A stretch of 21,721 bases of DNA. Source: a virus. Shown here in pieces: positions 4,643-21,395 of this stretch. Position numbers and translations under genes: made by a program. The notes below the pieces were generated by a model. The model was not told where the DNA came from and made no database searches. It saw only the letters and a list, made by a program, of their open reading frames with translations. The DNA lies in the IMG/VR virus record IMGVR_UViG_3300034093_003979, positions 1-21,721 of that record. One strand, 5' to 3'. The number at the start of each line of letters is the position of its first letter. The first letter of the stretch is position 1.

Positions 4643-6265
4643 TTACCTGCGACGGCCGAACAACCCACGGCGTTGTTGCGGTTGCGGTGGAACATACTGG
4701 GGCGGCGCATATCGTGGCTGATATTGAGGCGGCGCGTACTGCGGTTGATATTGCGGAGCTGCGGGCGGCGCCTCCTCTTGCGGTTCCGGTACTCCCACAC
4801 TCTCTGGAGAAGCAAAACCAAATTGACGTTCTCTTTCCTCGTCTTCTTGTCGTTTTTGCGCATCTAAACTGCGTTGAAACAGTGACAGCTCGCCTTCAGG
4901 TGAAGATGGATCCCGCGACTGAACTCTGTCCCTGTGACTGTCTGGGTGTTGCTCCAAATCAGCTAGCTCTTGAGGCGTCAGGTCTGAACGATTCGCCGGT
5001 GGAGGTGGCGGAAGAATACTGTCAAGTTGGTTTTGTTCCTGTCCGGTAAATGCCTTTTGCGTTTCCGTAAGAGGAGGGGGAAGATTTGGATCAACAAGCT
5101 CAGAGGGAGACTCAGACACTTGTGGCGTGTACGGAGCTACAGACGGACTTTTAAACGGATCGTTTGGTTTCGGTTTTGCGGTCGGAACTGGTGCCGGAAC
5201 TGGCGGTTTTTTTGGAGCGTCCGGCTGTTCCGGACTGTAAAGCTCAGACGCATCTGTAGGTAATGGTGTTTTATCCGCAAAAAAGTTACCAAGTCTTTGT
5301 TTAATTTTTTCTGGGTCAGTTGCGCTTACCGCACCTGCGGCTATTCCGCCAAGTCCGCTACCAATTCCACTTGCAATCGGCGTTGTATACGCTTTTGCCG
5401 CTTCGGTGCGTTTTTTTATCTTTTCGCCTTCTTGCGCCCAAATTTTTCCAAAATCAAACGGAACTTCAGGCGGCGGTGGCGTTGTAGCGTTGACCGGTTG
5501 CGGTGCCCGCGCAGGTAGCAGCCTAGCAGCCGCACCACCAGCAGTTCTACCAGCAGCCATCGCAGCGTTGGCTCGATTTAATTGCTGTGCCTGCTGAACG
5601 TACACATCCGGAATTTTACGCGTGCCTTCGCCAATCGTGCTAAAAGTATATGGTCTGCCGTCAGAACCCTCAATCGTTACATTGGTTTCACCCCTATTCA
5701 GCGCGTCTGCAATAGCTTTTACGTACTCACCCGGATTGTCTTTATCGTAACGTGGCAGTCGTGGATTAACTGCGGGCGCAGGCTGTGTCTGATTGCCGCC
5801 AGCTTGCATACGATCGGCAGCCGCTTGTTGTTTTTTGAATTTAACAAACTCGGCATAGTCCGGGTGGTTTTCAAATGCCTTTCGTGCTGCTTCGTGCCTT
5901 CGCAGTTCGGGCGTGGGCGGCGTGCTGATCGTACGACGTATACGAAATCCGGGAATGGTGTCATCGTCGTCATATGTAACGTCCATGAGTGGATTTGGTT
6001 TTGGCTGTGCGGGTTTGGCCCTCGGTAATTTAGGCTGCGGTGGTGGTTGAGGTGCTGGTGGCGGTGGTGGTTGAGGTGCTGGTGGCGGTGGTGGTTGAGG
6101 TGCTGGTGGTGGTGGTGGTTGCGGCTGAGGTGCTGGTGGTATTGCTGGCTGCGGCGATGCTTGCTTTACAGCCGCAATTGCACCCAAATCAGCTGCGGTC
6201 TTTGCGACCGCAACCTGCCGACGCGCAATTTCAGCGCCAAGATCATAAGCAGTTATAATTTTCAA
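4643..6265 (-). CDS. Proline-rich low-complexity protein, probable virion component
   Basis: 540 residues from a TTG start, chosen because AGGAG lies 7 nt upstream and the portal stop is 10 nt upstream; there is no ATG near this site. Domains: short helical N-terminus (KIITAYDLGAEIARRQVAVA), APQPPPPP repeats at about residues 43-76, a charged region with a folded-looking stretch near 165-225, a Gly/Ala-rich hydrophobic stretch (ASGIGSGLGGIAAGAV), long Pro-rich linkers with DPF and PSEL motifs, and a C-terminal Tyr-Pro-Gln repeat region ending RRGLFGRRR. Mostly disordered. A gene directly behind a portal is often a head-assembly, protease or scaffold gene, but no protease motif is seen. Function unknown; the basic Arg tail might contact DNA or the portal. 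Confidence 0.75.
   Translation of the reverse strand: MKIITAYDLGAEIARRQVAVAKTAADLGAIAAVKQASPQPAIPPAPQPQPPPPPAPQPPPPPAPQPPPPPAPQPPPQPKLPRAKPAQPKPNPLMDVTYDDDDTIPGFRIRRTISTPPTPELRRHEAARKAFENHPDYAEFVKFKKQQAAADRMQAGGNQTQPAPAVNPRLPRYDKDNPGEYVKAIADALNRGETNVTIEGSDGRPYTFSTIGEGTRKIPDVYVQQAQQLNRANAAMAAGRTAGGAAARLLPARAPQPVNATTPPPPEVPFDFGKIWAQEGEKIKKRTEAAKAYTTPIASGIGSGLGGIAAGAVSATDPEKIKQRLGNFFADKTPLPTDASELYSPEQPDAPKKPPVPAPVPTAKPKPNDPFKSPSVAPYTPQVSESPSELVDPNLPPPLTETQKAFTGQEQNQLDSILPPPPPANRSDLTPQELADLEQHPDSHRDRVQSRDPSSPEGELSLFQRSLDAQKRQEDEERERQFGFASPESVGVPEPQEEAPPAAPQYQPQYAPPQYQPRYAPPQYVPPQPQQRRGLFGRRR
6037..6138 (-). repeat. 24-nt tandem repeat encoding APQPPPPP
   Basis: Three identical 24-nt copies (6037-6060, 6061-6084, 6085-6108; each begins GCGGTGGTGG on the plus strand) are followed by a degenerate fourth copy with a 6-nt insertion ending at 6138. 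Each unit codes for eight residues of the polyproline region. Identity at all positions, including synonymous sites, points to recent copy-number change by slippage. Confidence 0.9.
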
Positions 6266-6275
6266 GGTAAGACTC

Positions 6276-8183
6276 CTAACCTGTTGGTTGCACACCGCCC
6301 GCCTGTCCCATAGCAGCACTGTTGGCCGCCTGCGTCTTCGTATCGCGTCGCTTTTGTGCCATTCTCTCTTTGACCAGAGCATGCATTGTCGGATTAGATT
6401 GTTTCAATTTGCGCAGATCGGAATCTTTAACAGACTCCGGTTGTCCAAGCAATTGATCCGCCAGACTATCCGCAGCCGCCATCATATCCTGAGGCGTCTG
6501 TTGCGTGTTCTGTCCCATAGCTTGAACATACTGCGTAACCGGGCTTTGCTGCTGCGCCATGGCGTTGGGATCTTGTCCACCTTGAGGAGCGCCACCGCCT
6601 TGAGGAGGAGCACCGCCTTGGGGTTGATTAGGATCGCCTGTCTGACCCTTGGCAATCTGCTGAGCAAAGCCTTGTTGCTGCATCTCTTCTTGCATACGGG
6701 CTTGAATCTCGGATTGAAAGCGCGCCTCTTCTCCCAGTTGCTTTTGTTCCTGTCTCCAATCATAACCCATGTCGCGCAAAACCGTAGTGCCAGACAACTG
6801 CTGTGACATCATCATCTGCGCAGCCATCATTTGCTTCTCAAGATTGTCAGCAATAGTGATGCGCTTGAGCGATGTCTTAACAGTCTCCCACGACTTAATG
6901 CGACTGATCTCTGTCGTCAACCAACGCAAAAATCTATTGGCGTCATTTACCAAAGGATGATGCGTGGCTTCAAACAAACGCAATGCTACAGGCGCCGTTT
7001 GAAGTTGCAGACTTCCATTATAAAGTTCAACGGGAGTACCGCAATCATTCAACAAGCGTTCGTAGCCTTGAGCAATTAATTCCGTTGGTGCCAGTTGCTT
7101 GGCATCGGCACCAAACATCTGGAAATTAACGGGAAACGGAAATACTTGAATTGAGGCGGGATCTCTGCGCCTACGCCTAATCATCTGCAAAGCTTGATTG
7201 CGAAAATCACCGCCGTCATATGTCATTAGCGGATCCATAGCTCCGCCCGACGGGCCACCTGCGCCTTGCCGTGGCTGAGGCGTGATAATCCTAAAAGGAA
7301 TCACGTAGTCAAGAGCGATGGCTTCGTTGAAACGATGAAGAACCTGCACGTACCAAATCTGCCTGAAGTTAGACAGCAACCGAGGAATACCCCAACCTCG
7401 GTTAATCATGCCTGACAACGTTGGTTCTTTCATGTGAAAAATAGCATCAGGGTTAAACCTAAAAACCTGATTTAATTGCACGGCCTTTAGAACTTCTTGG
7501 TCCACACGCTCCAAATGAAACAAAGAACCTTGGCGAATTTGTCTGCGGTAGTCTTCGGGGATACGCCAAATGTAATTCAAGTCTTCGGTGTAAAGATCAT
7601 GCAGCAATTCAATTTCGTGGACGTTCCAATGCTTAACACGAATTTTACTTTCGTCTTTTTCGTCTTTGATTTTCCAAGGCCCACGATATGTTTCTTTACC
7701 TTTCTTGGCACATACGGGACATGTGGCAACAAAATCAGGCATCTGCCAACTAAAATTAAATACTTTGTTTTCGTAGATTTCTTTGAGCGGCGCCTGATAT
7801 CCACACTTAGGGCAACTAAGAAAACGTTTGAAAGGTACAACGATACTGCAAAAACCATTACCGTAACACATGCGATTGCGCAGAGCTGTTTGAATCTCAC
7901 CAATGATGTTCATATCATCGCGTAAGTATTCTTCCCACTTTTCGCGCTCATCATCCGAGGCTTCTTCAATGACAACATCAGTAAGGAAATAACTGATGAT
8001 GCGTTCCATGGCCATACGGTAAGTGCCATGGTAATTCCAAATAAACTCACACCAGTACAAAGCCGATCTAATGTTCTGAGGAATAGAGAGACTGGCTACG
8101 TCCATGAATGGATCGGGAAACTCGGCACCACCGCCAAGTCCCGAGAAACGTGTAAACTGCCCGCGCATTAACGCCGAAGTCAT
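6276..8183 (-). CDS. Portal protein with zinc-ribbon insertion
   Basis: 635 residues. Portals form the dodecameric ring at the capsid vertex through which DNA is packaged and ejected. Support: an N-terminal region with YRMAMERIISYFLTDVV (55-71), LRNRMCYGNGFCSIVVPF (101-118), and the characteristic middle GMINRGWGIPRLLSNFRQIW followed by RFNEAIALDYVIPFRII; then a C-terminal Gln/Gly/Pro-rich tail of about 150 residues. Between core strands there are two knuckles, CPKC (124-127) and CPVC (155-158), spaced like a zinc ribbon, which most portals lack. The ATG has AAGGA 8 nt upstream. The neighbours fit a head module. The portal call rests on pattern and context, not on a search. Confidence 0.72.
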   Translation of the reverse strand: MTSALMRGQFTRFSGLGGGAEFPDPFMDVASLSIPQNIRSALYWCEFIWNYHGTYRMAMERIISYFLTDVVIEEASDDEREKWEEYLRDDMNIIGEIQTALRNRMCYGNGFCSIVVPFKRFLSCPKCGYQAPLKEIYENKVFNFSWQMPDFVATCPVCAKKGKETYRGPWKIKDEKDESKIRVKHWNVHEIELLHDLYTEDLNYIWRIPEDYRRQIRQGSLFHLERVDQEVLKAVQLNQVFRFNPDAIFHMKEPTLSGMINRGWGIPRLLSNFRQIWYVQVLHRFNEAIALDYVIPFRIITPQPRQGAGGPSGGAMDPLMTYDGGDFRNQALQMIRRRRRDPASIQVFPFPVNFQMFGADAKQLAPTELIAQGYERLLNDCGTPVELYNGSLQLQTAPVALRLFEATHHPLVNDANRFLRWLTTEISRIKSWETVKTSLKRITIADNLEKQMMAAQMMMSQQLSGTTVLRDMGYDWRQEQKQLGEEARFQSEIQARMQEEMQQQGFAQQIAKGQTGDPNQPQGGAPPQGGGAPQGGQDPNAMAQQQSPVTQYVQAMGQNTQQTPQDMMAAADSLADQLLGQPESVKDSDLRKLKQSNPTMHALVKERMAQKRRDTKTQAANSAAMGQAGGVQPTG

Positions 8184-9544: not shown

Positions 9545-9572
9545 GTTCGATTAACAAAAGTCTCTGATAGCT

Positions 9573-9617
9573 AAAAAAAAGACCAAGCCACCCGGGAACG
9601 CCCCGGACAGCTTGGTC
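9573..9617 (-). terminator. Intrinsic terminator, 16-bp stem
   Basis: In minus-strand RNA the arms pair over 16 contiguous positions (GACCAAGCUGUCCGGG at 9617-9602 against 9596-9581), including three G.U wobbles, closed by GCGUU and followed by eight U (9580-9573). The wobbles are A.C mismatches on the other strand, so the hairpin is directional. It ends the 78-residue gene 5 nt after its stop. Confidence 0.92.
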
Positions 9618-9622
9618 AAATT

Positions 9623-9859
9623 TTATTTGGACGCCGTAACGGCGTCTATTGTCCGCAATACAAGTTTGGAGTATTCTCCAAACCTGTTCCGCCAGACGAT
9701 TTCTCCGGGGCCAAAGGCCCCAAGGGCGGTGTTGAAAATTTCTGTGGCGCGGCGAGCATCAGCGGAATCGGCCGTAGCCAACTCCGCAATGCTTAACCCT
9801 GTGACCATCTTTGTCAATTTGTCTGCTGCGACCACAGACGATACGAATTCAGTTTGCAT
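9623..9859 (-). CDS. Hypothetical protein, 78 residues, hairpin-rich mRNA
   Basis: The ATG at 9859 follows GGAGG by 7 nt; an earlier in-frame ATG (9886) has no ribosome site. The protein is soluble and helical in its first half (FVSSVVAADKLTKMVTGLSIAELATADSADARR, shown here only as a landmark: begins FVSSVVAADK, ends TADSADARR) and ends with a more aromatic region (GEIVWRNRFGEYSKLVLRTI). No family recognised. It has its own promoter-like motif, structured leader and terminator, so it forms a single-gene transcription unit. The coding sequence carries several strong RNA hairpins, including a 12-bp stem at 9660-9687. This is the same layout as the 252-residue gene at 10248-11006. Confidence 0.75.
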   Translation of the reverse strand: MQTEFVSSVVAADKLTKMVTGLSIAELATADSADARRATEIFNTALGAFGPGEIVWRNRFGEYSKLVLRTIDAVTASK

Positions 9860-9913
9860 CGTGCATCCTCCACTAAACAACGGCATTACGCCGGCACAGC
9901 TAAACCGCTGTAC
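9630..9913 (-). other. RNA hairpin array in leader and coding sequence of 78-residue gene
   Basis: Stems in the minus-strand RNA (plus-strand coordinates): 9630-9646, 7 bp, loop 3; 9660-9687, 12 bp with one G.U, loop AAUA; 9705-9723, 8 bp with two G.U, loop UUU; an outer 5-bp stem 9689-9693/9725-9729 enclosing the last; 9821-9839, 6 bp with one G.U; and in the leader 9881-9893 (4 bp, or 5 with a G.U) and 9894-9913, 7 bp with one G.U. No two stems share sequence, so they are not dispersed repeats. Confidence 0.8.
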
Positions 9914-9916
9914 ATG

Positions 9917-9927
9917 TTATATGACGC
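9917..9927 (-). promoter_or_regulatory. Promoter-like motif GCGTCATATAA
   Basis: It lies 16 nt past the stop of the 75-residue gene and 57 nt before the ATG of the 78-residue gene. The same motif (GCGTCATATTA) is at 11068-11078 in the same relation to its neighbours. A TATAAC box fits a -10 element, but no -35 hexamer is seen at 16-18 nt, so an extended, activated or phage-specific promoter is more likely. An A-rich stretch precedes both copies. Confidence 0.5.
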
Positions 9928-9942
9928 AATTTTGCCTTGAAT

Positions 9943-10170
9943 TTAGGCAGGTTTGAAAGGTAGCCAATCGTCTGTATTCGAGTTCCAGCGCAGTGCTTCT
10001 TTGGTGGCAGTTAACACGTGATTGACCGTACAGTAATTAACGGCACCGCATTTACATGACTTTGAAAAACAGTCATAAGTATTTTCATGCTCCTTACAGT
10101 CAGGAGCAATAACAACTTTCATACAAACGGTACAACGGATAACCACGGTATATTCCTCGTGTCCGCACAT
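9943..10170 (-). CDS. Small Cys-rich, probable zinc-binding protein
   Basis: 75 residues from the ATG at 10170 (weak GAG upstream). The frame is open back to 10311, but that part overlaps the terminator and end of the previous gene, so the short start is preferred. Nine cysteines in the first 47 residues (2, 13, 16, 25, 34, 39, 41, 47, with His4 nearby), including CTVC and CKC, suggest one or two structural zinc sites; the tail is RWNSNTDDWLPFKPA. It may bind nucleic acid or protein, but no named zinc family fits. Only 31 nt separate the upstream terminator's U run from its start and no promoter is visible, so expression may depend on readthrough. Its RNA has two 7-bp hairpins, at 10055-10077 and 10088-10108. 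Confidence 0.65.
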   Translation of the reverse strand: MCGHEEYTVVIRCTVCMKVVIAPDCKEHENTYDCFSKSCKCGAVNYCTVNHVLTATKEALRWNSNTDDWLPFKPA

Positions 10171-10201
10171 TCTAAGCTCAACAATAATTTCTGCAATAGT
10201 T

Positions 10202-10241
10202 AAAAAAAAGACCACGCCCAGCCCTAAGGCCAGACGTGGTC
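10202..10241 (-). terminator. Intrinsic terminator, 14-bp stem
   Basis: The minus-strand RNA pairs GACCACGUCUGGCC (10241-10228) with GGCUGGGCGUGGUC (10223-10210) across a UUAG loop: 14 bp including three G.U wobbles, then eight U (10209-10202). It starts 6 nt after the stop of the 252-residue gene. Only the outer 7 bp pair on the plus strand, so it is directional. Confidence 0.92.
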
Positions 10242-10247
10242 TCTGCA

Positions 10248-11006
10248 TTACGCCAACATGTCTGGCGGGAACGCCAAACTGATTTTCAATCCGTGTGGGT
10301 ATTCCACCCACTCCTTGCTATCCCATCTTTCTCCGGTGGGCAGCGGAGTTAAGACAAAGGCTTGCGCCTCCTCCAGATAGTTGTCCACCTGCCCCTCTCC
10401 GAGGAGGTGTGTAACCTCGTAGGCTACACTACCATCCGACATCGCTGTCGGAATTGGAGACTTGACGTCCCGGAGCGCCGCAAAGGCGCCCACAAACGGA
10501 TTGAGCAGGACTGAGTCCTGCTGCAAGATCAGATCGATCTTGCGCAATTGGCCGCGCACAACAAGGGCCATGTCGGCCCATGACCTGCGCCCAGCGGCGC
10601 AAGCCGCCGTGGTCATGGCAACATCCACCGCCACGGCAGCGGTGAACGACGCAGCGTCGTCCGCCGCGCACTGCGCGGCTGGCATCCCCCTCAAAGGGAA
10701 AACGCTTTCGGTGGCATTGATGCCACCAACAACACCTGCCCCGAAGGGCAAGATCCGCGCCACGGTGGCGCTGGGAGTGCAATCTCCCAACGCCCCGTCA
10801 AGGTAATTAGGCGGTACATCCTGTACCACCAGCCATTCACCGGACAGTACAAAATGCCGGTCTTCGATGACCGTTACCTCTTTTGCCAACAGAGCAACTC
10901 CCACGTTTCCTCTGAACTTAGTGGCGATGCCATTGCGGTTTTTCGGCATCGTGGCATTGTGCCACTTTGCAAGGGCTAGGCTGTTATCAATATTGCTAGT
11001 AGTCAT
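10248..11006 (-). CDS. Hypothetical protein, 252 residues, encoded by a hairpin-packed GC-rich gene
   Basis: The ATG at 11006 follows GGAGG by 6 nt and the stop is 6 nt before a strong terminator, so this is a genuine single-gene unit. Residues 1-35 are polar, about 36-60 look beta-stranded (NVGVALLAKEVTVIEDRHFVL), about 105-150 are strikingly Ala-rich (AADDAASFTAAVAVDVAMTT), and the C-terminus is mixed (WVEYPHGLKISLAFPPD). No signal peptide or known motif; family unknown. Hand counts give 72% G+C over 10561-10680 against 47% at 11101-11160 just upstream, and the whole coding region forms consecutive hairpins. The RNA structure may itself have pushed the protein towards Ala, Gly and Arg. Acquisition from elsewhere is an alternative reason for the composition. 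Confidence 0.75.
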   Translation of the reverse strand: MTTSNIDNSLALAKWHNATMPKNRNGIATKFRGNVGVALLAKEVTVIEDRHFVLSGEWLVVQDVPPNYLDGALGDCTPSATVARILPFGAGVVGGINATESVFPLRGMPAAQCAADDAASFTAAVAVDVAMTTAACAAGRRSWADMALVVRGQLRKIDLILQQDSVLLNPFVGAFAALRDVKSPIPTAMSDGSVAYEVTHLLGEGQVDNYLEEAQAFVLTPLPTGERWDSKEWVEYPHGLKISLAFPPDMLA

Positions 11007-11053
11007 GAGAAACCTCCACGCAATAACTGACACGCTATCCGAAATGGATAGCG
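10260..11053 (-). other. Dense array of about 25 RNA hairpins across leader and coding region
   Basis: Stems in sense RNA, with bp and G.U count: 10260-10279 (8,1), 10295-10311 (6), 10331-10348 (5), 10356-10371 (6,2; GCAA loop), 10386-10409 (5+4), 10409-10429 (9,1), 10435-10452 (7; GCGA loop), 10473-10491 (7,1), 10504-10522 (8), 10523-10543 (8), 10565-10579 (5), 10578-10618 (8, enclosing a 6-bp stem), 10622-10648 (10,2), 10644-10662 (8,1), 10663-10679 (7), 10685-10701 (7,2), 10708-10729 (9,1), 10735-10752 (7,1; UUCG loop), 10757-10771 (7) or 10767-10794 (11,1), 10810-10830 (9,1), 10858-10873 (5), 10925-10951 (8,1), 10951-10965 (6), 11033-11053 (8, in the leader). A few overlap and are alternatives. 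Confidence 0.85.
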
Positions 11054-11067
11054 CGACGCATTGCAGA

Positions 11068-11078
11068 TAATATGACGC
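11068..11078 (-). promoter_or_regulatory. Promoter-like motif GCGTCATATTA
   Basis: Second copy of the GCGTCATATWA motif: 17 nt past the stop of the 210-residue gene and 61 nt before the ATG of the 252-residue gene. The 8-bp leader hairpin (11033-11053) lies between motif and ribosome site. TATTAT is a fair -10 box; no -35 hexamer is seen. Confidence 0.5.
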
Positions 11079-11094
11079 GTTTAGGGTCTGTTAT

Positions 11095-11727
11095 TTAGTC
11101 GTCGTAATCGTCGTCATTACGCGGTATTGGCGCCTGTCTGACTTGTTTCTTTTTGTCTTCTTTGAACGTGACACTCGTTATCATTTCGACTGGACCAAAA
11201 TAATAGTCTGCCTGCATCTTGACCACAGGCAATAATGTCTCAGTATCGACTTCTGTAACCGCACCATCTTTTACCGCAGGAACTGTCAATGCCGTTGCAC
11301 CGTCAGGCAGATACACATACCTCTGCGGCCCCTTAGTGACAGGCAGAGGTACGCCATAAAAAGGAAATACATAAACGTCTTTACCTTCTGCCGAACTTAA
11401 ATACTTGGCCAAGGCTACAGACGTGCGTACGTTCTTAATCTTAGGAGCCTCGCCGTCTGCGCATTCGACAATCCAATAACCTATCGACGTGAAATTAGGA
11501 ACGACGTCACCCACAGGCATTTCGGCTGCAACTTTTTCCTGAATGACGGTTCGTGTAAATTCGCTTAATTTGGCAAAGCTGTTTTTAAATAACTGTGCGT
11601 CATCACATACAACTGTTTTATGCATAGCCAATTCACGCGATACAGGACTACGCCGTGTTTCTTCTACCGTCTCTTTGCCGACGGGACTTAATTTGTCAAA
11701 CCATGTGTTCCACGCAGCCAGTGCCAT
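11095..11727 (-). CDS. Hypothetical protein, 210 residues
   Basis: The ATG at 11727 overlaps the previous stop by one base (TAATG), so translation is probably coupled. The N-terminus is helical (ALAAWNTWFDKLSPVGKETV). The middle and C-terminal parts read as alternating beta strands with many Val, Tyr and Pro (DVYVFPFYGVPLPVTKGPQ, RYVYLPDGATALTVP), and the tail is acidic (PRNDDDYDD). No membrane segment, metal site or catalytic pattern seen; family not recognised. It is the last of three adjacent unknown genes of similar length (210, 219, 226 residues) without visible similarity to each other. The next gene downstream is separated by the first GCGTCATATWA motif. Confidence 0.72.
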   Translation of the reverse strand: MALAAWNTWFDKLSPVGKETVEETRRSPVSRELAMHKTVVCDDAQLFKNSFAKLSEFTRTVIQEKVAAEMPVGDVVPNFTSIGYWIVECADGEAPKIKNVRTSVALAKYLSSAEGKDVYVFPFYGVPLPVTKGPQRYVYLPDGATALTVPAVKDGAVTEVDTETLLPVVKMQADYYFGPVEMITSVTFKEDKKKQVRQAPIPRNDDDYDD

Positions 11728-18658: not shown

Positions 18659-19465
18659 TCACTTAAAAGCTACGGCTACTGGATACTTAGGAACAATATC
18701 GTCTCCAAACGTTAAATCAAAATACGCCACGATCAATCGGCGTGAAATATACTTACGCGAATTAGTTGTTAATTCAATACTTGTTACAACGTGTTGCGGG
18801 CACATTACTTCAAACTCATCGCCGTGGTCTGTTGCACATACGGCTACGGCAAAATTAGTAAATTCGCCGCGTCCGCTTTTTACATCCACAACGTTGTAAC
18901 TTTTAGTCTTAGGCGTGTGCGCCGCCAAGAAAAATACAGAATCGTTCGATTTGTATCCTTCCGCCGAATGCCGCAAATTGACTCCGGGGTAACCTAACAG
19001 CAGACAACGCGATTGATAGTAGTTAAGATCTTCCCGGTTACGAATTTTGACCGTTTCTGCACACGTTACTAATGCCCCCGTAAAAGCGTTGAGCTTTTTA
19101 TATCTTTCAGAAAATGCAGCTGTGCTGATCTGATCGCACAACACAAATTGCACTTTCGTATTATCTGCCTTTAATTTTTTTAATCGCTTTTGCAACACAG
19201 TTTGTGCTATGCCAGTTTCTGTTAAAAATCCGTCTAGAATTACAGCAGGTTCTTGTGTCAGCGGCCAATGCAATGCGCTGTTGATACGCGGTACAGTTGT
19301 GACCGGTGTCGCATCCATGGTCACCAACTGTACTTGATCGTTTTCAAGATATGCAAAACAACGTTCGCCCTGCAAAATAGGTTGACCTAATGCGTTGTCC
19401 CAGCGTACTTTAGATGCGCAATCCACGTAATCGCGCGGAAGTGCAGGGCTTGGCATTTTTATCAT
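18659..19465 (-). CDS. DNA ligase homologue lacking all catalytic residues (pseudo-ligase)
   Basis: 268 residues that track a phage ATP-dependent DNA ligase from end to end. Motif I (K-x-D-G-x-R) reads ILQGER: Ile30 replaces the AMP-accepting Lys, Gln32 the Asp, while Gly33 and Arg35 remain. Motif III (LDGEL) reads LDGFL, with Phe80 for Glu. Motif IIIa is kept as FVLCD. Motif IV (GYEGxxxR) reads GYPGVNLR, with Pro160 for Glu. Motif V (LLKxK) reads FLAAH. The OB-fold ends normally (AYFDLTFGDDIVPKYPVAVAF). The fold and length are intact while adenylation residues are gone, so a DNA- or nick-binding or regulatory role is more likely than ligation. The ATG overlaps the previous stop (ATGA). Assignment by eye. 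Confidence 0.7.
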   Translation of the reverse strand: MIKMPSPALPRDYVDCASKVRWDNALGQPILQGERCFAYLENDQVQLVTMDATPVTTVPRINSALHWPLTQEPAVILDGFLTETGIAQTVLQKRLKKLKADNTKVQFVLCDQISTAAFSERYKKLNAFTGALVTCAETVKIRNREDLNYYQSRCLLLGYPGVNLRHSAEGYKSNDSVFFLAAHTPKTKSYNVVDVKSGRGEFTNFAVAVCATDHGDEFEVMCPQHVVTSIELTTNSRKYISRRLIVAYFDLTFGDDIVPKYPVAVAFK

Positions 19466-20373
19466 GAACTAGAATTCCTTGAACAATTGATGCATGCGGT
19501 CACGGCAGCACCGTCGCTAAAATATGCTTGTGTATTACACGCCGGACACAGTTTTACCGCATATGTCGTTGGATGACAACCCGCTCTGCATTCTTGATAG
19601 CCTATAGGACATGTGTGACATGCAAAATTATTTGCATACCCAGCAGGACACGCATACTTAGGATTGCGTCGAGCCCTGTAGCGCATTTGCTCTTTATTCC
19701 ATTTCATCAAGTTTGGAATAGCAACAAGTTCTACAAACCTTAAATTTTGTTCGGATTTGTCATAATCCACAAGCGCAGAAAACCGCATTGTCACCAGTTC
19801 TAACGGTCCTCTGTACAAAAATACTTCGCGTTTACGCATACTCGCAGGTAGCCGGCGATACAGCTTTAATTGACGCCATGCTATATACCGACAATACGAT
19901 AACGGCCACCATGACGTGCTTGTCAACGTGCAAGGAAATCCTGCTAAAACTTTAAACGTAACGTCGTACCCTTCTACCTTTTTTGCATTAACGCGCGCAG
20001 TCATTTCCATGATCTGCACAGGCACCCATTCCTTACCCTCAAGCCGCACGTAAGGACGTACGGCTTTGTTTTCCTTAAGCGTCCAACAGTTACCAAGCAA
20101 CCGATGTATCAAATCTACAGCCAAAGACTCTGTCAGTTCCGTTCCAGCAAATGGGCGCAACGATTCCTGTATTGTGTCGTATTGCAATCCGGGCATACGG
20201 ATTGCTAACGAGACCTGAGCAAAAATGTAATTCACAAATTGCTTGAATATGCTTCCCGCAAGTTTTTGATTAGCAAATTTATGGTAAACATCTAAACCTA
20301 TGCTATTCTTTTGCGCAATGATTTGTTCAACGTCGTAGCGTAATCGTGTTGTTTTTTCATTGCTCTCCGTCAT
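19462..20373 (-). CDS. Hypothetical protein with Cys-rich zinc-binding C-terminus
   Basis: 303 residues. The N-terminal 230 are mixed alpha/beta with no known motif (YDVEQIIAQKNSIGLDVYHK; DVTFKVLAGFPCTL). The last 70 hold nine cysteines and one His: Cys242, 252, 255, 262, 266, His267, 276, 279, 294, 297. Pairs C-x2-C at 252/255, 276/279 and 294/297 fit two or more zinc sites, with phrases CHTCPIGYQEC and CPACNT. Such tails often bind nucleic acid or protein. GGGGA lies 8 nt before the ATG. Its stop overlaps the pseudo-ligase start, so the two are made in step and may act together. Family not named. Confidence 0.7.
   Translation of the reverse strand: MTESNEKTTRLRYDVEQIIAQKNSIGLDVYHKFANQKLAGSIFKQFVNYIFAQVSLAIRMPGLQYDTIQESLRPFAGTELTESLAVDLIHRLLGNCWTLKENKAVRPYVRLEGKEWVPVQIMEMTARVNAKKVEGYDVTFKVLAGFPCTLTSTSWWPLSYCRYIAWRQLKLYRRLPASMRKREVFLYRGPLELVTMRFSALVDYDKSEQNLRFVELVAIPNLMKWNKEQMRYRARRNPKYACPAGYANNFACHTCPIGYQECRAGCHPTTYAVKLCPACNTQAYFSDGAAVTACINCSRNSSS
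20041..20066 (-). repeat. Hairpin in coding sequence, 11 bp with one G.U
   Basis: Arms 20041-20051 and 20056-20066 pair AAGCCG-U-ACGU with ACGU-G-CGGCUU around CCUU in the minus-strand RNA. The one non-Watson-Crick position is a U.G wobble in the sense RNA and a C.A mismatch on the plus strand. Confidence 0.65.
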
Positions 20374-20908
20374 CGATCAATTCCCCGTATGTGCCAGTTG
20401 AAACACCGGTACTTTCATTTACGACAACAATAGGTGTGGTATTTGTTAATCTAGGCAATTCCGGTGCGTAAATATGTTCGTACGAATAAGTAGCTGTAAC
20501 ATCTTCAGAAAAATCTTCAATTGCAGCGATTGTCAGATAGGATCGAATCAAATGGTACGGCGCATGCTCTGCGGTACCAACCCCATTTTTCTGTAACTGA
20601 GAAAACAATACACCCAACTCACTCCAGTCCCCACTTGTATTGAAGAAACGCGCAATTGCGTCACTTAGTAAATACAGTCGCTGCGCTTCGCCTCGTTGAA
20701 ATTCGTTTGGTGCTGTCCAAAATCCCAAGGTAATTGTGCCGTGTTGTTCTTCCGTCATATCCAATAGTGGCACATACCGATCATCTAAACGCAAATTAAA
20801 ATACACGCCAATAGAATTACCGTCATCAATTAACTTAACGACATATCCGTCTCCGGGTTTTAACTTAGTTAGCGTTTTGGGCTTGTCGTCGTTTGACATT
20901 GTGTTCAT
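20357..20908 (-). CDS. Hypothetical protein, 183 residues
   Basis: The ATG at 20908 follows AGGG by 6 nt and lies 44 nt inside the previous gene in another frame; a second ATG three codons on is possible. Likely beta-rich in the first half (GYVVKLIDDGNSIGVYFNLR; HGTITLGFWTAP), helical in the middle (AQRLYLLSDAIARFFNTSGD) and again later (APYHLIRSYLTIAAIEDF), with an acidic tail (YGELIDDGEQ). It resembles small single-strand-binding or recombination mediator proteins only in general layout, so no function is assigned. Its RNA carries a 10-bp bulged hairpin at 20553-20579 (TGGTAC and CGCA arms). Overlaps the Cys-rich gene by 17 nt. Confidence 0.7.
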   Translation of the reverse strand: MNTMSNDDKPKTLTKLKPGDGYVVKLIDDGNSIGVYFNLRLDDRYVPLLDMTEEQHGTITLGFWTAPNEFQRGEAQRLYLLSDAIARFFNTSGDWSELGVLFSQLQKNGVGTAEHAPYHLIRSYLTIAAIEDFSEDVTATYSYEHIYAPELPRLTNTTPIVVVNESTGVSTGTYGELIDDGEQ

Positions 20909-21395
20909 AAATTACCCTGTTTACTTCTGACCAGTAATATTTAATTACAGCTTTCTTTGAAAACCCTTGTGCCGTTAACTCAAGCATAATTGCTTTTTGT
21001 TGCGCTGGTTCTGGATAAGCGTATTCCCATTTAGCTGCGGCGTTACGCGCTTTTATATACAACTGTGCTACCACAGGATCGTTCTGTTCTAAAGTTAACG
21101 GTGTTTTATTGATTTTTTTGGCTGCATACGCTGCGTACTTTCTAGGTAACAAGTGCTTTAACTGCATGTCAATTATGGCTTGATCCGTCGTCAACGCTGT
21201 GACTACGCAATATTCTTTAAATTCGGTTGAATAACACACGGGAAATATAATCCCGTGTGTTTGCTCTGAAAGCAAATAGCAATTTTTAGTATGTTTCCCG
21301 AAGGGAACCGCTTGTTCCACAGCTTCATAAATGGAAAGCTTAACGTCGGGAAAACGTTCGGCAAATCGATTCAATGCGTGAATAGAAATCAACAT
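20865..21395 (-). CDS. Hypothetical protein with DUF4258-like N-terminus
   Basis: 176 residues. The beginning ISIHALNRFAERFPDVKLSI, followed by two or three strands (NCYLLSEQTHGIIFPVCY; EYCVVTALT), resembles the DUF4258/RelE-like layout (His-Ala-x3-Arg-x3-Arg, then a small beta sheet). The remaining 100 residues are a basic helical extension (KYAAYAAKKINKTPLTLEQN; KAVIKYYWSEVNRVIYEHN) not seen in the short family members. No active-site proof; a nuclease-like or RNA-binding role is only possible. The start is 12 nt after the PhoH stop. Codons for about residues 30-55 carry three close RNA hairpins. Confidence 0.65.
   Translation of the reverse strand: MLISIHALNRFAERFPDVKLSIYEAVEQAVPFGKHTKNCYLLSEQTHGIIFPVCYSTEFKEYCVVTALTTDQAIIDMQLKHLLPRKYAAYAAKKINKTPLTLEQNDPVVAQLYIKARNAAAKWEYAYPEPAQQKAIMLELTAQGFSKKAVIKYYWSEVNRVIYEHNVKRRQAQNAN
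21233..21307 (-). repeat. Three adjacent hairpins in coding sequence
   Basis: 21233-21243/21251-21261 form a perfect 11-bp stem (AACACACGGGA, loop 7). 21260-21265/21271-21276 form a 6-bp stem (TTTGCT, loop 5). 21295-21299/21303-21307 form a 5-bp stem (TTCCC, loop 3). All lie inside the DUF4258-like gene; there is no U tract after any of them. Confidence 0.7.

Follow-up and report, generated by a model that had tools for sequence, protein, structure and literature searches.

Why would large phages with double-stranded DNA (dsDNA) genomes fill the coding sequences of some of their messenger RNAs with hairpins? The question is raised by a 21.7-kb stretch of DNA, positions 1 to 21,721 of the IMG/VR virus record IMGVR_UViG_3300034093_003979, which contains a tubulin-like gene and is called the window below. 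On its minus strand lie two genes rich in short stems, one of 252 codons (10248-11006) and one of 78 codons (9623-9859), with a 75-codon gene between them. An original prediction, made from the letters of the window, had drawn attention to these stems; the hairpin observation is confirmed here and extends further than first noted. As judged from sequence comparisons, the two genes belong to a multi-gene phage regulon with a common promoter-like motif, which the prediction had missed. Our preferred reading, to which we give a probability of roughly 45%, is that the short transcripts of this regulon would be armoured by hairpins and so protected from ribonucleases (RNases).

Two hairpin-rich genes in the window

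Perfect stems are concentrated at 9.3-11.05 kb of the window. The prediction of about 35 short stems over 1.5 kb was borne out by a count of 34 perfect Watson-Crick stems of at least 5 bp with loops of 3-8 nt in 9560-11065. The check it had proposed, folding against codon-preserving shuffles, was carried out with synonymous shuffles that keep the protein and the codon usage, the energy being the mean minimum free energy (MFE) of 50-nt windows. The 252-codon gene fell far below its shuffles (z about -9): its mean of -17.9 kcal/mol compares with -13.5 in 200 shuffles, the lowest of which reached -15.2 (z -8.9), and shuffles that also nearly keep dinucleotide counts gave z -9.2. The same coding sequence has 13 perfect stems of at least 6 bp (shuffle mean 2.4, maximum 10) and five of at least 7 bp (mean 0.84, maximum 5; 1000 synonymous shuffles). 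The excess of long stems claimed for 10248-11053 thus held, although six perfect stems of at least 7 bp were found there (at 10435, 10504, 10523, 10663, 10710 and 11033) rather than eight. Hyperstable loops did not hold up as a theme: the UUCG loop is present at 10737-10750, but only four GNRA and two UNCG loops occur among the 52 four-nt loops of 17 hairpin genes.

When 29 genes across the window were compared, 10248-11006 was a clear outlier (z -8.5; 13 stems of at least 6 bp versus 2.3 expected) and all others lay above z -3 except 9623-9886 (z -3.2) and 19462-20373 (z -3.5). The latter resembles the 78-codon gene in z, but its energy excess is smaller (1.3 versus 2.8 kcal/mol per 50 nt). 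Tested as 9623-9859, the 78-codon gene gave z -3.7 with three stems of at least 6 bp against 0.5 expected. The 75-codon gene between the two is ordinary (z -1.3, tested as 9943-10191).

A gene set marked by a promoter-like motif

The contigs behind the homologous loci are G001 (186 kb), G002 (66 kb) and G003 (74 kb), and further hairpin-rich open reading frames (ORFs) were found among their 391 tested ORFs. These are mechanical calls, not annotated genes. At the 5' ends of the hairpin-rich ORFs stands a common promoter-like motif of 30-31 bp, CTAAAT-N13/14-GCGTCATAWWA with close variants, reading CTAAAT-N13/14-GCGTCATA, then W-W-A, often CATG. An IMG/VR scan with the motif gave 44 stretches, some of them chance matches as judged by AT-rich, hairpin-poor surroundings, and added the contigs G006 (190 kb), G009 (137 kb), G008 (208 kb) and G007 (205 kb). 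The window gene 6276-8183 matches four cultured-phage records, namely Vibrio phages D69, D181 and D148 (~30% identity) and Salmonella phage Arash (25%, annotated portal protein); D69 and Arash were included in the comparison, and neither has a motif site. Folding z was computed only where stem z exceeded 2, both among the 391 ORFs and among 971 ORFs of G006, G007, G008, G009 and two Arash stretches, and in addition for all 984 ORFs of G001, G003, G009, D69 and Arash (12 shuffles each).

Stems of at least 6 bp are enriched in the 400 nt behind the motif relative to background: 3.73 versus 0.70 in G001 (11 sites, p 2.7e-8), 4.8 versus 0.85 in G003 (10 sites, p 7.1e-7), 3.89 versus 0.97 in G009 (nine sites, p 3.6e-5) and 2.0 versus 1.01 in G008 (two sites, p 0.048). 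The site lists for this test allowed one mismatch and include some chance sites; the p values are nominal, homologous units being common to G001 and G003. A strict set was defined by the pattern [CG][TA][TA]AAT-N13/14-G[CTG]GTCATA[ATG][AT], close variants allowed, which gave 34 sites (nine in G001, nine in G003, six in G009 and 10 in G006). Excluded were looser hits in these four contigs, all hits in G007 and G008, and G002, which overlaps G001 around the window. The first ORF behind the strict motif has z of -2 or below at 29 of the 34 sites (four of these being -2.0 after rounding) and -4 or below at 17.

The association also holds when read from the ORFs. An excess beyond -3 kcal/mol per 50 nt was seen in 12 of the 304 ORFs of G001 and G003, 11 of which lie within motif units, and in nine of the 151 ORFs of G009, seven of them in or directly behind motif units, counting two second ORFs and one antisense ORF. 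The corresponding numbers are four of 278 for D69 and two of 251 for Arash, all in ORFs of 54-81 codons. The unit products differ from one another, and most unit genes are short. In G007, which has no significant overall stem excess, a variant motif with GGCATATT occurs at several places on the plus strand, and the ORF behind 111107 has z -4.5.

From these comparisons a typical unit can be described: behind the motif comes, in most cases, a leader with a strong hairpin, then a start codon left open and an ORF rich in hairpins, and the end usually resembles a terminator. The parts of the two units of the window, all on the minus strand, are as follows, with the basis of each assignment in brackets.

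11068..11098, minus: promoter-like motif of unit 1, CTAAAT-N14-GCGTCATATTA (same motif at the equivalent position of G001, G002 and G003)
11095-11727, minus: upstream gene, whose stop codon is the TAA of the unit 1 motif (sequence; stop overlap in the G001 ortholog too)
11033..11053, minus: unit 1 leader hairpin, an 8-bp perfect stem (stem scan; the G001 ortholog leader folds at -20.8 kcal/mol)
10248..11006, minus: 252-codon ORF, its coding sequence a hairpin string, with no Pfam or PHROGs match over cut-off (shuffles, profile scans)
10202..10243, minus: terminator-like end of unit 1, a GC-rich stem then T8 (sequence, fold)
9943..10170, minus: 75-codon gene between the units, without motif or hairpin excess, an internal control (shuffles)
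9917..9946, minus: unit 2 promoter-like motif, CTAAAT-N13-GCGTCATATAA, which shares letters with the stop codon of the 75-codon gene (sequence; G001 ortholog)
9896..9911, minus: unit 2 leader hairpin (stem scan)
9623..9859, minus: 78-codon ORF, the second hairpin-rich gene (shuffles)
9573..9617, minus: terminator-like end of unit 2 (sequence, fold)

At 29 of the 34 sites the motif begins either no more than 9 nt from the point where an open frame of at least 55 codons stops, or 22-35 nt past the first T of a T6 run; at nine of the 34 the TAA within CTAAAT itself serves that preceding frame as stop codon. In 17 of the 18 G001 and G003 units the folding energy of the leader, taken over 60 nt, lies between -18 and -36 kcal/mol (-12.5 in the remaining one), and 26 of all 34 leaders reach -15 kcal/mol or below, compared with a mean of -10.4 for random 60-mers. 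Twelve chosen leaders, namely 11 of the 18 strict G001 and G003 leaders plus that of the window, with near-duplicates and leaders lacking the common stem omitted, show compensatory changes at six of the 13 pairs of that stem. Near-identical leader hairpins were also seen before different ORFs (G001 2736 and 180687; G003 13209 and 11361), as though leaders and ORFs had been swapped like modules.

Around the start codon folding is weak, with a mean 30-nt MFE of -2.7 to -3.9 at -20 to +20 compared with -5 to -7.5 in the ORF beyond +40. Reduced structure at start codons was already known for dsDNA viruses, according to PMC3072339. Behind the ORF, a T-run follows in 30 of the 34 units, in 23 of them 28-51 nt past the stop codon, and mostly a stable stem precedes it.

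This layout bears on the proposal that the hairpins slow ribosomes and thereby aid membrane insertion or folding of the products. Some unit products do begin with a hydrophobic segment, as judged by eye (e.g. G003 14013 and G001 183566), but the non-coding leader is structured as well, structure runs throughout the ORF and its positions are mostly unconserved between distant homologues, and we regard translational pacing as quite improbable.

Parts of the unit recall known systems. Messenger RNAs of the ompA type are stabilised by a 5' stem-loop, and the units likewise have a strong hairpin near the presumed 5' end and a terminator-like stem at the 3' end, but here the ORF is filled with hairpins as well. 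Morons are autonomous phage gene units with their own promoter and terminator; the units resemble them as small genes between ordinary genes with promoter-like and terminator-like signals, known here from sequence, and differ in that one phage-specific motif is common to many units and in the RNA armour. In type I toxin mRNAs (hok or aapA type) the ribosome-binding site is sequestered in the full-length mRNA. In the phage units the start region is weakly folded at the level of local folding.

The folded molecule and its relatives

The strand that folds can be read from stems interrupted by a single non-Watson-Crick pair. In the 34 ORFs that pair was G-U 41 times and A-C five times, compared with 11.4 and 9.8 in shuffles (nominal p 3e-7), whereas other single mismatches were near expectation (40 versus 34.0). 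At stricter stem lengths the G-U to A-C ratio was 25:5 (p 0.001) and 16:3 (p 0.02), and in a smaller set of 17 genes the counts were 17 and four. Because G-U in one strand is A-C in the other, it is the sense RNA that must fold, and this bias points to the sense RNA as the selected molecule. A function at the level of DNA or of an antisense RNA is disfavoured by it. The same numbers bear on a mutational origin, in which template-switch (quasipalindrome) mutation would yield perfect inverted repeats without selection on RNA. Stem turnover and the many perfect stems would suit such a process; however, a DNA process should be strand-symmetric, which 41:5 is not, and start regions are spared and the trait follows the motif. 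We consider this origin very improbable.

Third-position differences between the window and G001 fall on 16 of 173 paired and 18 of 78 unpaired positions (p 0.005). In the 17 ORFs with z of -4 or below, trimers and tetramers are all unremarkable in frequency (largest depletion z -3.6), so that selection appears to act on structure and not against a single short motif; avoidance of an RNase E motif or of a k-mer was not found. The encoded proteins also look constrained in both window genes, since the first two positions of codons have changed less often than four-fold sites relative to G001 (0.034 versus 0.117 and 0.070 versus 0.463). An AlphaFold model of the 252-residue protein was unusable (mean pLDDT 35). 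Ten of the 34 unit proteins, the first given as 200 of its 213 residues, were scanned against Pfam at E 0.05 and had no match.

A search of IMG/VR gave nine loci with the 252-codon gene. Seven of them are near, at 96-100% identity and with one only partial; the other two, L008 and L009, are distant, with 35-39% tblastn identity to the window gene (43% and 42% in alignment). Both distant alleles are strongly folded, L008 with z -10.6 and 11 stems of at least 6 bp and L009 with z -13.8 and 17 stems, compared with two in shuffles. The particular stems are largely different. When L009 stems were placed on the window allele, pairs with letters on both sides were the same in 17 cases, compensatory in seven, changed on one side in 14 and broken in 52; window stems on L009 gave 18, nine, 13 and 32. 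Even on L008, to which L009 is 71% identical in DNA, the numbers for L009 stems were 87 same, three compensatory, 10 one-sided and 33 broken, with five of 18 stems fully kept. What is stable over distance is the amount of structure and not a particular fold.

A conserved fold is therefore rejected, most stems being unshared between distant alleles. An ornate RNA, one of the earlier suggestions, is not supported in the sense of a single conserved fold, and Rfam gave no match in the window at the gathering score. The original prediction had also taken a lack of conserved pairing among homologues as grounds for rejection. Such pairing is largely absent, and by that rule alone the finding would fall, but the rule asked too much, since a high level of structure has persisted with little conservation of individual pairs. 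The broader claim stands: the structure is real, it exceeds that of codon-preserving shuffles, it is apparently selected in the sense RNA and it is equal or stronger in the two distant homologues. An alignment-based scan of viral contigs found no additional homologue of the 252-codon gene, and no relative was found in the GenBank phage collection or in genome_contigs (six peptide patterns), searches from which very near records may be missing.

Among near relatives, special conservation of the central stretch was rejected. The two window units are 93% and 81% identical in nucleotides to G001, and the three adjoining genes are 99.2-99.8% identical anyway. This divergence would suit a shield against defence systems that target RNA (CRISPR of type III or VI, ribonuclease toxins), in which structured counter-defence transcripts hide their target sites, as would the mostly short unit genes and the lack of Pfam matches among the 10 unit proteins scanned. 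However, the genomes are mosaic, several ordinary genes are about as divergent as the hairpin units, and no short motif is strongly depleted; we think a defence shield improbable as the explanation. An allele swap specific to the hairpin gene is not claimed, the genomes being mosaic.

Pervasive structure in coding RNA is known from RNA viruses, and the term GORS for it is used in a passage of PMC6563262. The phage units share with such RNAs a coding-RNA folding energy well below that of codon-preserving shuffles, as in the 29 of 34 units above. They differ in that GORS structure is genome-wide in an RNA that is the viral genome, whereas here short local hairpins linked to a motif fill selected mRNAs of dsDNA phages, almost every other ORF of G001 and G003 being without such structure.

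The coding RNA of the single-stranded RNA (ssRNA) phage MS2 likewise folds below its synonymous shuffles (the same procedure gave z -3.3 to -8.5 for three genes). Its excess per 50 nt is 1.9-2.8 kcal/mol compared with 4.4-5.7 in the window gene, L008 and L009, whose GC is higher (0.58 versus 0.49-0.52), so that the excess of the hairpin genes is 1.6-2.9 times that of the MS2 genes. Stems of at least 6 bp number 1.7-3.1 per kb in MS2, ~17 in the window gene and L009 and 10.5 in L008. Such density could be expected of an RNA that is packaged or protein-bound like an ssRNA phage genome, the mRNA doubling as structural RNA. This we hold to be very unlikely: there is no common loop and few stems are shared, the units encode different proteins and Rfam has no match in the window. 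The RNA of a phage unit is not a genome. An RNA replicase, which an ssRNA phage genome encodes, was not found among the 10 window proteins scanned against Pfam and PHROGs.

We rate a promoter-marked set of hairpin-string mRNAs in dsDNA phages as new in kind. To our knowledge there is no precedent for coding RNA that, measured against its own shuffles, is more structured than an ssRNA phage genome and is limited to a promoter-defined gene set of a dsDNA phage. Open-access papers on structured phage mRNA, RNase and non-virion RNA polymerase (RNAP) themes describe no such regulon among the matches listed.

What the hairpins may be for

The phages appear to have polymerases of their own. An RNAP beta-like domain is encoded in five of the six contigs searched and a beta'-like domain in five of five. 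Both lie in frames of ~1470-1500 aa, possibly one fused protein (G001 166122-168554; similar in G006, G007 and G009), and in G008 the frames have 1044 and 636 aa. Sigma70 region 4 matches over cut-off were found in G006, G008 and G009, and none in G001, G003 and G007.

Such a polymerase might need fast hairpins in the nascent RNA, which would pull the transcript off its DNA template or block Rho or antisense partners. According to an excerpt of PMC7598289, the non-virion RNAP of phage AR9 transcribes single-stranded DNA, and how the RNA separates from its template is an open question there. That question and the phages' own RNAP domains make RNA release the main rival, and the excess is indeed local, having been measured in 50-nt windows. 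However, the structure is absent from almost every other ORF of G001 and G003, and the same polymerase presumably reads some of these; the strong hairpins at the two ends, too, suggest that what matters is what becomes of the finished RNA. We therefore think folding of the nascent RNA unlikely as the purpose.

Protection from RNases, one of the purposes that the original prediction had offered, has become the leading explanation, though one that we infer. The motif would be a promoter for the phage's own multisubunit RNAP, or be used with a phage sigma factor. In the ORFs, as the sequence shows, synonymous codons are placed such that the sense RNA folds into one local hairpin after another. 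These fast-folding hairpins, together with those at both ends, would deny RNases single-stranded landing sites and free ends, and the armoured messages would outlive other transcripts. The ribosome, a good helicase, could still read from the open start site. As any hairpin would suffice, individual stems could turn over and overall structuredness stay. Protection from RNases would thus explain the indifference to hairpin identity, the inclusion of leader and end, and the lack of a strongly depleted short motif.

Several results weigh against this picture of an armoured regulon. The stem excess behind the motif was not significant in G002 (five sites, p 0.17), G006 (11 sites, p 0.16) and G007 (11 sites, p 0.31), and the five exceptions among the 34 first ORFs, with z above -2, are all among the 10 strict G006 units. 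No T-run was assigned in four units, seven of the 30 T-runs lie 106-715 nt past the stop codon, and the stem in front of the T-run is in a few cases weak (-9.4 to -10.6). The reverse strand folds nearly as well as the sense strand (z -10.7 versus -10.6 in L008 and -12.4 versus -13.8 in L009), which is expected because most pairs are Watson-Crick, so the choice of strand rests on the G-U bias. The contrast between paired and unpaired sites in third-position differences was not significant relative to G002 (22/173 versus 15/78, p 0.18). In 12 tested ORFs the RNase E consensus RNWUU showed no depletion (z -1.3 to +2.4). Nor is the 252-codon gene short of long unpaired stretches, its longest (20) matching that of shuffles (20.1).

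A wider proposal, put forward only tentatively, is that a dsDNA phage lineage shields one regulon at the level of RNA. The messages behind a dedicated promoter would be chains of co-transcriptionally folding hairpins that block RNases, RNA-guided immunity and re-annealing to the template but not the ribosome. If true, it would do for RNA what DNA modification or the phage nucleus does for DNA. The units allow a direct test of whether structure acting in cis is enough to decide what happens to an mRNA during infection, and they are natural examples of how much structure a still translatable mRNA can carry. The combined signature of motif and structure could help to locate accessory genes of uncultured large phages, possibly with roles in counter-defence.

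A megablast search of the window against the GenBank phage collection gave no match, and no open literature on Salmonella phage Arash was found. The 10 window proteins scanned had no PHROGs match and, over the Pfam cut-off, only matches to tubulin models; four weaker Pfam matches (E 0.01-0.1) lie below it. The tubulin models match 1155-2396, a Tubulin/FtsZ-family protein (Pfam Tubulin, E 2.5e-12) that is 98-100% identical in G001, G002 and G003 and 48% identical in G008, and that points to a PhuZ-like spindle. An ORF at 4643-6382 has long proline-rich repeats. Outside the two units, an 11-bp perfect stem with a 7-nt loop lies at 21233-21261 within gene 20865-21395, which has 10 stems of at least 5 bp (3.9 expected), and the corresponding ORFs of G001 and G002 also have 11-bp stems with 7-nt loops.

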